This document shows, piece after piece, positions 631-3,300 of a stretch of 40,044 nt of DNA. The translations under genes and the position numbers were made by a program. The first letter of the stretch is position 1. Each line of letters opens with the position of its first letter. The DNA is from Acidobacteriaceae bacterium (lineage in GTDB: Bacteria > Acidobacteriota > Terriglobia > Terriglobales > Acidobacteriaceae), in the NCBI GenBank assembly GCA_025462925.1, contig JAOAPL010000300.1, positions 1 to 40,044 of the forward strand, read 5' to 3'. The notes beneath the pieces are model-generated. The model was not told the origin of the DNA and made no database searches. It saw only the letters and a list, made by a program, of their open reading frames with translations.

Positions 631-1530
631 CTACGCCTTCGCTTCCGCTGCCTTGATCTTTACCGCGATATCAATGAACGCCAGCGCTGCGCGGCTCAGC
701 GCCTTGTCTTTGCGGAAGACGAGTGCAAGATCGCGCTTGATCTGCGCGTCGGCGATGGGAAGAGCGGCCAGGATCTTGGCTTTGATGTCGCTTAGTGCGT
801 TTGATCGCGCAATAAAGCCGATCCCCACTCCCGCCGCCACGAACCGTTTCAGCAACTCGCTCGAATCCAACTCCATGGAGACATTCGGCTTCAACTTGCG
901 CGCGTGCAGAAGCTCGTCGATAGCGTCTCGTGTCTTGCCGAACTTTGGCAGCAACAGCGGAAACTTCACCACGTCCTGGATCGCCACCTGCTTCTTGTCG
1001 TTCATGATGGGATGGTCGGGAGGCGCGATCACTACCAGTTCGTCGCGATGGATCACCTTCACCGTGAAACGCGAATCCTCCACCGGCATAGACACCACGC
1101 CGAAATCCACCGAGTTGTCGATCACTGATTCCAATATGCGAATCCGCTCAGAGCGCTTGATCCCCACGGCGACGTTCGGATACAGCTTCTTGAATTCCCC
1201 GAATACTTCCGGCAGAACATGAAGACACGTTCCTTCATTGGCGCCGACAACGATCTCGCCTCGGGGAATTCGCTCCATCTCCGCCATGGACGAGATGATT
1301 CGGCGCTTGCTTTCCATCATATCTTCCGCGTATTTCTGAAAAGCCTTGCCTGCCGCAGTCAGCGAAACTTTTCCCCCTGAGCGGTCAAACAGCTTTGCGC
1401 CAACCTCATCTTCCAGCGCGCGGATCTGCGACGAGATCGCCGGCTGCGTGCGGAAACATTTCTCCGCCGCGCGCGAGAAGCTGTTGTGCTTCGCCACTTC
1501 TATAAACGAATTGAGCTGGTCAAAATCCAT
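631..1530 (-). CDS. LysR-family transcriptional regulator
   Basis: This 299-residue protein has the usual LTTR length. Residues 1-60 form the winged helix-turn-helix (FSRAAEKCFRTQPAISSQI, then LFDRSGGKVSLTAAG), followed by a linker helix. From about residue 90 to 295 it has the periplasmic-binding-protein-like effector domain (GEIVVGANEGT, then FVAAGVGIGFIARSNAL). It is a DNA-binding regulator responding to an unknown small molecule. The ATG at 1530 has only a weak ribosome binding site (AATAAG abutting it). A second near-identical copy of the first 35 bases lies 84 bp upstream with a better AAGG site, so the start region has been rearranged. The downstream arginine decarboxylase is on the same strand. 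Family assignment is secure; the target genes are inferred only from position. Confidence 0.93.
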   Translation of the reverse strand: MDFDQLNSFIEVAKHNSFSRAAEKCFRTQPAISSQIRALEDEVGAKLFDRSGGKVSLTAAGKAFQKYAEDMMESKRRIISSMAEMERIPRGEIVVGANEGTCLHVLPEVFGEFKKLYPNVAVGIKRSERIRILESVIDNSVDFGVVSMPVEDSRFTVKVIHRDELVVIAPPDHPIMNDKKQVAIQDVVKFPLLLPKFGKTRDAIDELLHARKLKPNVSMELDSSELLKRFVAAGVGIGFIARSNALSDIKAKILAALPIADAQIKRDLALVFRKDKALSRAALAFIDIAVKIKAAEAKA

Positions 1531-1649
1531 CTTATTTTTGCTACGCTGATCCCTCGTTACACTCGGGATTTCGGCTGCGGGCTCCCGCTTCGCTCACGCC
1601 CGCATGGCGCCTCAACTTCTATAAACGAATTGAGCTGATCAAAATCCAT
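1496..1649. repeat. 35-bp direct repeat (LysR 5' end) flanking an 84-bp insert
   Basis: Positions 1496-1530 (ACTTCTATAAACGAATTGAG...) and 1615-1649 are the same 35 bases with one mismatch, a synonymous GAC/GAT in codon 4 of the LysR gene. Between them lie 84 bp (1531-1614) holding a hairpin-forming GCGGGCTCCCGCTTCG...GCCCGC. The pattern is either a 119-bp tandem duplication with later change, or an insertion of a small element with a long target duplication. No transposase is present. Confidence 0.9.
1557..1649 (-). pseudogene. Duplicated LysR start: 30-codon leader-like fragment
   Basis: Reading from the outer repeat copy gives an open frame of 30 codons. It begins MDFDQLNSFIEV, identical to the LysR N-terminus, then runs into the insert (EAPCGRERSGSPQPKSRV) and stops at TAA 27 bases before the intact LysR start. 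An AAGG lies five bases before its ATG, which suggests this was the original start codon and ribosome binding site. It may be a dead fragment or may now act as an upstream open reading frame influencing translation of the regulator. No independent function is claimed. Confidence 0.6.
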
Positions 1650-1869: not shown

Positions 1870-3300
1870 ATGTCGACAGAGCTACGTAATTTCCTGGAGC
1901 TTTCCTACGAGGAACTGGAATCGCTCAACCTACAGGCCAAAGAGCAGCGGAAAAAGCGTGTCGCCCCGGGCAAGATCCAGGAAGAGCGTATCAAGTATCT
2001 TACCGATGAAAAGCGCATCAAGGCCGTCACCGTGCTCTTTAGCGACCTCGAAGGCCGCTTGCACATGCTCGATTACGACAAGAAATTTCTCGTCAAGAAT
2101 TGGGACAACCTCACCTTTGACGGTTCGTCCATTCGCGGCTTCACTGCGCAGCGCGAGAGTGATCTCCGTCTGACCATCGATTGGGGCGCTTTCTATTGGG
2201 CTCCGTCCGATTTCTTTGGCCCTGGCAAGGTGCTTGTCTTCAGCGAAGTCACTGACAAGGGCGGAACCGCTTATAGCGCCGACATCCGTGGCGTCCTCAA
2301 GCAGTTTGCTGATGACCTCCACGCCAAGGAAGGCTACACGCTGAACGCGGCGAATGAGATCGAAGGCTTCATCTTCAAGGGCGCAGACGCCGAGCAGAAC
2401 TATCACGAGACGGGAAAATTCGAATACGTGAACACCGGCGGGTATTACCATTCGCTGCCCGGCGATCCGCTCCGCACTTTCATTGATACCAGTGCCGAAG
2501 TCCAGCGCGCGATGGGCTTCGAGAATGAAAAGGACCACCCTGAAGTTGCGCCCTCGCAATTCGAGATCAATTACAGCTACGGCGAAGTTGTTGCTGCTGC
2601 CGACCAGATCCAGCTTTACAAGCTGATCTGCCGGCAAGTCGCCACCCGCATGGGAATGACGGCCTCATTCTTGCCCAAACCGGTGGTTGGCGTGAACGGC
2701 AACGGCATGCACACCAACGTTTCCATCAGCAAAGGTGGAAAGAATCTTTTTTGGGACGCAAAAGGAGAGGAGAAGCTAAGCCAACTTGGATGGTCTTTCG
2801 TTGACCGCATCCTCACACACGCGAATGACATCTGCCTCATGCTCAACGCCAGCGTGAATGCATATCGCCGGCTCGATCCGCACTTTGAGGCGCCTAACCA
2901 GATCAAGGCCTCCGCCACCGACCGCGGCTCCATGGTGCGCATTCCCATCGGCAATGACAAGAGCATGCGCGTCGAGGTCCGTTCCGTCGGTCCCGACGCC
3001 AATCCCTATATGGTCATGTATTCAGTCTTCAAAAGCGGCATTGACGGACAGACTTCCAAGATCAAGAACCTTCGCCAGGCCGAACGATATCTGCCCGACA
3101 ACATTTACACCGCGCTGGAACATTTCCGCGACTCGTCGTGGACATCCAAGATGCTGGGCGGCGATGTAAAGGGGCGATATGCAGACTTGAAACAGGCCGC
3201 CGCAGACCGCTGTCCCCGATTGCTCGGGACTTTCGTGAAGGCCCCTGAAGTCCAATACCACCATGATGTCTATAACCAGTTCCTTTGGAACAGGTTCTAA
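1870..3300 (+). CDS. glnA: Glutamine synthetase, type I
   Basis: The protein (476 aa) catalyses ATP-dependent synthesis of glutamine from glutamate and ammonia in the cytoplasm. Visible family marks are the beta-grasp FDGSSIRGF, the glutamate/metal segment ANEIEGF, NGNGMHTNVS (in place of the usual GxGMHxHxS), an ATP-site segment around APNQIKASATDRGSM, and VEVRSVGPDANPYM. The ATG at 1870 is chosen over the ORF-track start at 1789 because GAGGAG sits just before it and the GS N-domain begins there. The NLYDLP adenylylation loop of enterobacterial GlnA is not present; the region reads ERYLPDNIYTALEHF, so control by tyrosine adenylylation seems unlikely. It is monocistronic, ended by a strong hairpin at 3321. 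GlnA-like gamma-glutamyl ligases are the alternative reading. Confidence 0.88.
   Translation: MSTELRNFLELSYEELESLNLQAKEQRKKRVAPGKIQEERIKYLTDEKRIKAVTVLFSDLEGRLHMLDYDKKFLVKNWDNLTFDGSSIRGFTAQRESDLRLTIDWGAFYWAPSDFFGPGKVLVFSEVTDKGGTAYSADIRGVLKQFADDLHAKEGYTLNAANEIEGFIFKGADAEQNYHETGKFEYVNTGGYYHSLPGDPLRTFIDTSAEVQRAMGFENEKDHPEVAPSQFEINYSYGEVVAAADQIQLYKLICRQVATRMGMTASFLPKPVVGVNGNGMHTNVSISKGGKNLFWDAKGEEKLSQLGWSFVDRILTHANDICLMLNASVNAYRRLDPHFEAPNQIKASATDRGSMVRIPIGNDKSMRVEVRSVGPDANPYMVMYSVFKSGIDGQTSKIKNLRQAERYLPDNIYTALEHFRDSSWTSKMLGGDVKGRYADLKQAAADRCPRLLGTFVKAPEVQYHHDVYNQFLWNRF

Follow-up and report, generated by a model that had tools for sequence, protein, structure and literature searches.

Displacement of a gene end by incoming DNA is known from kilobase-sized genomic islands that use a dedicated integrase. 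Islands at dusA displace the original 5′ end of the gene and supply a new one (PMC4482086), and gene-end islands also occupy tRNA and tmRNA genes, including ssrA in Dehalococcoides (PMC3146451). Cis-mobilizable elements (CIMEs) derive from an ICE or IME with one target (PMC5704250). Among smaller sequences, a tetranucleotide 5′ of the hairpin helps to choose the cleavage site in the IS200/IS605 and REP systems (PMC8266576). The 68-nt mobile element described here, referred to as El, has features in common with each of these. Like gene-end islands, it inserts at a gene end, displaces the old end and supplies a new one, and its units show imperfect direct repeats (attL/attR in islands), tandem accretion and cargo. 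Like CIMEs, its units lie between att-type flanks without integration genes and form tandem arrays. With REP/BIME sequences mobilized by TnpA-REP (RAYT) and with IS200/IS605 ends (PMC8266576, PMC3733652), El shares a short, dispersed hairpin with a bulged stem, a tetranucleotide (TTGA in El) 5′ of the hairpin foot, insertion at a short motif and the lack of duplication at intergenic sites. Integron cassettes are similar in outline, with a hairpin site (attC) plus cargo, arrays and an enzyme in trans.

In the window (the whole 40,044-nucleotide stretch of Acidobacteriaceae DNA that was analysed), near-identical 35-nt direct repeats are located at 1496-1530 and 1615-1649, with 34/35 matching positions, a spacing of 119 and 84 bp between them. 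The sequence ATGGATTTTGATCAGCTCAATTCGTTTATAGAAGT on the minus strand at 1649-1615 recurs at 1530-1496 with one synonymous change, GAC in the inner and GAT in the outer copy, and the 84-bp insert contains GCGGGC at 1577-1582 and GCCCGC at 1598-1603. These coordinates and the GAC/GAT mismatch agree with an earlier note on this DNA, as does an upstream 30-codon ORF that begins as LysR does at 1649 and stops at 1557, before the true start at 1530. The left edge of the inserted element proper lies at 1615, at the first T of the minus-strand TTGAG. The duplicated end of lysR is thus 34 nt long (1497-1530 and 1616-1649); an element of 67-68 nt and 17 nt of unique sequence (1531-1547) make up the 84 bp. 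The features of the locus are as follows.

631-1530, minus strand: lysR-type regulator gene, 299 aa, start in use at 1530 (ORF; Pfam HTH_1 and LysR_substrate)
1497-1530, minus strand: copy B, the intact lysR start in use, ATGGATTTTGACCAG...GAAG, running on into the gene
1531-1547, minus strand: Z, a 17-nt unique stretch AGCGTAGCAAAAATAAG between El and copy B
1548-1615, minus strand: El, 68-nt mobile element, left edge TTGAG at 1615, right edge GGGATC at 1548
1549-1569, minus strand: hairpin 2, ATCCC-GAGTGTAACGA-GGGAT (DNA fold, covariation)
1573-1611, minus strand: hairpin 1, GGC-[4-nt bulge]-TGCGGGC / GCCCGCA-GCC, with loop GAGCGAAGCG, a d(GCGNAGC)-type mini-hairpin (DNA fold, covariation)
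1557-1649, minus strand: 30-codon ORF from the displaced start (ATG 1649) into the element, stop at 1557
1616-1649, minus strand: copy A, the displaced original lysR start, truncated after GAAG at the element edge
1870-3300, plus strand: glutamine synthetase gene, divergent from lysR (Pfam Gln-synt_C; ortholog alignment)

The glutamine synthetase neighbour fixes the orthologous neighbourhood of lysR. Comparison with orthologous loci and a genome search for the insert, both proposed in the earlier note, gave neither of the outcomes that the note had named as refuting it. The same neighbourhood in G001, a genome of the same genus, has a single lysR start and no insert, i.e., an empty site, and a single start was present in all 19 orthologs examined (G001 and 18 further orthologs from the family). 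Window positions 1548-1619 matched 13 sites in the genome of origin (G000, E<=1e-3) and 2 to 59 sites in seven relatives. Given the further copies of the insert in the genome and the single gene start of the same-genus ortholog, the lysR repeat was confirmed as real and not a chance similarity. Its best reading is one insertion of the El cassette family of soil Acidobacteriota: in the window, the event would have pushed the original lysR start upstream and placed a new start behind the element. At the single difference between the two copies, A agrees with G001; with only one difference, a plain in-place duplication may also fit this particular copy.

The sequence on the promoter side of copy A is conserved with G001; since this side is kept, lysR transcripts probably run through copy A and both hairpins before reaching the working start. 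The earlier note had proposed that the 30-codon upstream ORF places lysR under leader-peptide control, and the ORF does exist and begins with the LysR start. Its 18 additional residues are element sequence, it is not conserved, the orthologs lack a second start, and other El units lie in tRNA genes and at the 3′ ends of genes, where a leader is impossible. We therefore give this explanation almost no credence, and the ORF is best seen as an unavoidable by-product of the displacement of the gene start. Just upstream of the lysR start, at 1662-1700, the window contains 7-base repeats GCTAANN / TTAGCNN; runs of similar 7-mers are present ahead of the lysR start in many orthologs and at other places in G000. 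The region between lysR and the glutamine synthetase gene also contains, at 1698-1740, a block GTTTTTATGAG..CGATAA..GGAA.TTATAG that G001 conserves and that can be recognised in other orthologs; it is likely a promoter/operator common to both genes.

The El profile spans 68 nt and consists of TTGA, a 10-bp stem with a 4-nt bulge and a second stem, with mini-hairpins of the GNA type (GCGNAGC) in both loops. The tag was TTGA in nearly all copies. The window copy matched the profile over positions 1-68 and the pattern at 1591-1615, and its Z stretch is not conserved across the El family. The stems covary strongly, with one pair being C-G in 49 and G-C in 40 copies, and Watson-Crick cells numbered 1283/1380 compared to 1107 ± 8.5 after shuffling. 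The folding energy of the window copy alone was unremarkable (z -1.1 to -1.7); the secondary structure rests on covariation and not on the energy of this copy. No excess of G-T over A-C was observed in the stems (15 vs 49, with 26 of the A-C in one column), and nothing in Rfam matched El or came near the gathering score. RNA-level action was rejected, as the wobble pattern of the stems had no RNA signature. The d(GCGAAGC) hairpin is exceptionally stable in DNA. This stability and the wobble pattern favour a role of El as single-stranded DNA.

Strong El matches were detected in 50 of the 150 family genomes drawn. A phylum-wide draw of 396 genomes contained El in five, all from the same Acidobacteriota family, a count that is a lower bound as few candidates were scored per genome. 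In IMG/VR, El was found in one contig only. The sample consists largely of draft MAGs, and tandem El copies are not independent. El was not found described in the open-access literature, where its absence is weak evidence.

At least 63 of the 135 distinct full-length El copies were flanked by direct repeats A and B of 13-99 bp that end at the left edge of El within 1 nt. This is a lower bound, since the threshold missed short or diverged cases (mnmG, rplP and a lolC/E-type gene start), and the count is somewhat inflated by tandem copies. With swapped flanks, such a repeat occurred in 13/1607 combinations, which is partly expected because different copies share the same tRNA genes. The remaining copies, about half, had no clear repeat and were decayed, short or outside genes. 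All 63 left flanks had A at -3, with A preferred at -2 and C or G at -1, giving the target motif A-N-(C/G), while the right flank carried almost no signal beyond GGATCT (nearly information-free beyond TC).

Where the duplicated DNA could be identified, it was the end of a gene, with a few A/B pairs having no gene assigned, and the repeats usually stopped within a few bases of that end. Genomic islands likewise are flanked by direct repeats from the end of the target gene and leave that gene restored. Transfer RNAs of about 20 isoacceptors were among the targets, and 34 of the 63 cases overlapped ARAGORN tRNA genes; the pieces extended from the T-arm to the 3′ end or were 5′ parts, and the duplications mostly ended 1-9 nt past the tRNA end. 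The ends of 5S rRNA genes, including the terminator, were also duplicated. Among protein-coding genes, the starts of lysR, mutL, infA, hspR, mnmG, rplP, lysC, a kinase gene and a 3-hydroxyacyl-CoA dehydrogenase gene were duplicated, as were the 3′ ends of genes for EF-G, ComM, a dipeptide permease and PyrH; these names come mostly from sequence recognition and not in each case from Pfam.

Copies A and B were then compared within loci. For coding targets, hand-picked among pairs with clear reading frames, 64.8 synonymous and 15.2 non-synonymous differences were counted (pN/pS 0.064), indicating purifying selection. Neutral decay of A alone predicts far more non-synonymous change (P about 7e-5 even if half of the changes lie in A). 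Synonymous divergence approached saturation at the gene ends of ComM and the 3-hydroxyacyl-CoA dehydrogenase, and two 5S loci (L065 and L134) had compensatory changes between the terminator stems of A and B. The synonymous bias and the compensatory stem changes indicate that A and B both worked as gene ends. GC3 was uninformative on A vs B in most genes; in comM, B departed from the rest of the gene and A did not (A 0.94, B 0.65, rest 0.94), and in the 3-hydroxyacyl-CoA dehydrogenase gene B departed more than A (A 0.50, B 0.28, rest 0.70). In mutL, A and B each matched the outgroup at 2/4 sites. The simplest reading of these comparisons is that A would be the native, displaced end and B the replacement.

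Several insertions had no duplication. Paralogs within G135 read GAAG|GCATG and GAAG|El-TTATTC-GCATG, and at rpmJ, just upstream of rpsM, in G000 (L015) and G146 (L123), the TTGA of El provides the stop codon and nothing is duplicated. Insertion therefore does not always produce a duplication; one is seen where inserting El would break a gene.

These observations bear on MITE-like transposition with very long and variable target-site duplications formed in place, by staggered cuts like those of IS1549 or by target-primed synthesis, with insertions within genes surviving only where the duplication reaches the gene end. Such transposition fits the exact element edge, the target motif, the empty site, the varying repeat lengths and the near identity of the two lysR copies. 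It does not account well for the synonymous or compensatory differences between A and B, which come close to saturation in two gene ends, for intergenic or non-disruptive insertions without duplication, or for repeats that stop close to gene ends, and we consider it possible but unlikely. El also differs from DDE-type MITEs in having no terminal inverted repeats and no fixed short TSD: no inverted repeats were found at the lysR locus, and direct repeats across the family were 13-99 bp or none. Of the suggestion in the earlier note of a small mobile element with a long target duplication, the mobile element is thus upheld by the empty site and the dispersed repeat. The simple target duplication is not, because A and B differ synonymously or compensatorily and copies outside genes may lack a duplication.

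Several sites were shared between genomes or contained more than a minimal unit. At hspR, units were located at the same codon in G007, G149 and G136, from three genera. All three share the atypical junction CATG|TTGA and an element that ends in GGAAC just ahead of the start codon, and the site was empty in two same-genus relatives of G149. This pattern would be expected if locus-specific units are transferred horizontally, or if the units are old and frequently lost by exact deletion. Tandem [El-Z-B] units were found at hspR, at the permease gene and at several tRNA genes. In G131, a 3′ piece of tRNA-Arg and El are followed by an ORF for a 268-aa Mrr-type nuclease (PF04471, E=1.4e-6), and an intact tRNA-Arg with the same 24 bp lies 1.25 kb further on, after this ORF. 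The nuclease between two tRNA-Arg end copies behind El (L267, G131:C116) is a possible defence cargo cassette. The tRNA-Pro site of G102 has a 1.7-kb cargo unit together with a minimal unit, and a 5S unit in G164 contains a 143-aa ORF of no assigned family.

Filler between direct repeats and tandem arrays could also arise by template switching or slippage, in which a replication fork copies the hairpin-rich repeat elsewhere and restarts upstream, duplicating the gene end. The exact left edge with a fixed A-N-S motif at dozens of sites, the synonymous divergence and the cargo units make this very improbable. The slippage duplication considered in the earlier note does not by itself explain an exact left edge common to >100 loci.

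Gene-end displacement, att-like repeats, tandem accretion and cargo also match the logic of islands (PMC5704250, PMC3146451, PMC4482086), and El could be the conserved attachment arm of degenerate, CIME-like remnants of integrase-carrying islands. Island integrases are target-specific, whereas one El sequence occurs at >30 unrelated targets, and CIMEs share no structured element between targets. No integrase lies next to El: units of about 0.1-1.7 kb had no integrase of their own or adjacent, integrases being located elsewhere, and tyrosine integrases were not linked to El copies. In G007, where El copies are most numerous (59 matches), tyrosine integrases gave only two hits. A 16.7-kb tRNA-Glu island (L316, G102:C7, 250-17007) contains a tyrosine integrase and resolvase-like genes, and an El unit lies in its displaced tRNA fragment. 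It was rejected as an autonomous large version of El, because the island is ordinary and separate, carries an integrase of its own, and has the El unit only within the tRNA fragment. An origin of El units as island remnants is thus quite improbable. Overall, gene-end islands are kilobases long and have an integrase and one target gene, whereas El is about 0.1 kb, has no integrase and uses dozens of targets.

On balance, and with some confidence, we interpret El units as non-autonomous, integrase-less mobile cassettes of about 0.1 kb that join at A-N-S|TTGA and restore the target gene with an end of their own. A unit would comprise TTGA with two hairpins, optional cargo or Z, and B, a complete substitute for the end of the target gene; in the window, this would be the 84-bp insert plus the inner 34 bp. 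It sits exactly 3′ of an A-N-(C/G) site within the target gene. The native end A would remain beyond the element, cut at its edge, and B, which either arrives with the unit or is regenerated along with it, would keep the gene working. The folded single strand of El may be recognised by an enzyme supplied in trans, either a REP/IS200-like HUH transposase or a site-specific recombinase, and TTGA may be a guide-like tag beside the cut, as in the IS200/IS605 and REP systems. Units would move between strains together with B; the lineage of the unit would then be the source of B, and A would be native. A more tentative proposal is a dedicated recombination system of Acidobacteriota based on single-strand hairpins, in which a 68-nt site moves locus-specific micro-cassettes between species, each with a diverged end for its own essential target gene and sometimes a cargo gene, such as one for a restriction-like nuclease, without a cassette-borne integrase.

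Candidate partner enzymes were searched for. Y1 transposase genes were present in 18/21 genomes; one, in G005, had weak El-like matches beside it, and the others had none. An adjacent RAYT/Y1 enzyme was rejected as the general partner of El, as Y1 genes are common and adjacency is not systematic. The Y1 transposase-like gene at G005:C3 704-1642 (L228) has weak El-like hairpins on one side and a full copy of El on the other, and is a candidate partner. No integron integrase exceeded the family cut-off in 150 genomes, where only generic tyrosine recombinase matches were obtained, and El differs from integron cassettes in this as well as in its target and repeats. A GTTRRRY-like left edge of El is possible in comparison with attC, with no matching opposite arm (R″) seen by eye in the alignment. 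El differs from REP sequences in its tag (TTGA, not GTAG or GGAG), its 68-nt length, two hairpins, gene-end duplications and cargo, and no systematic linkage to a RAYT was observed.

A repeat smaller than a tRNA that displaces the ends of dozens of essential genes and tRNAs implies an unrecognised enzyme acting in trans. The spread of small structured repeats, the tolerance of insertions in essential genes and the question of whether cargo such as defence-like nucleases travels by El units can now be tested. El also explains one class of unusual tRNA and gene-start duplications, and of spurious ORFs, in the genomes of Acidobacteriota.

Rickettsia palindromic elements are small palindromic insertions in genes, sometimes in frame, and we know of no gene-end replacement described for them. 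In comparison, a gene for a UvrD-like helicase contains El in its linker in members of three genera: L045 (G005), L138 (G087) and L169 (G102). Where read (L229), this insertion is in frame and adds residues to the protein.
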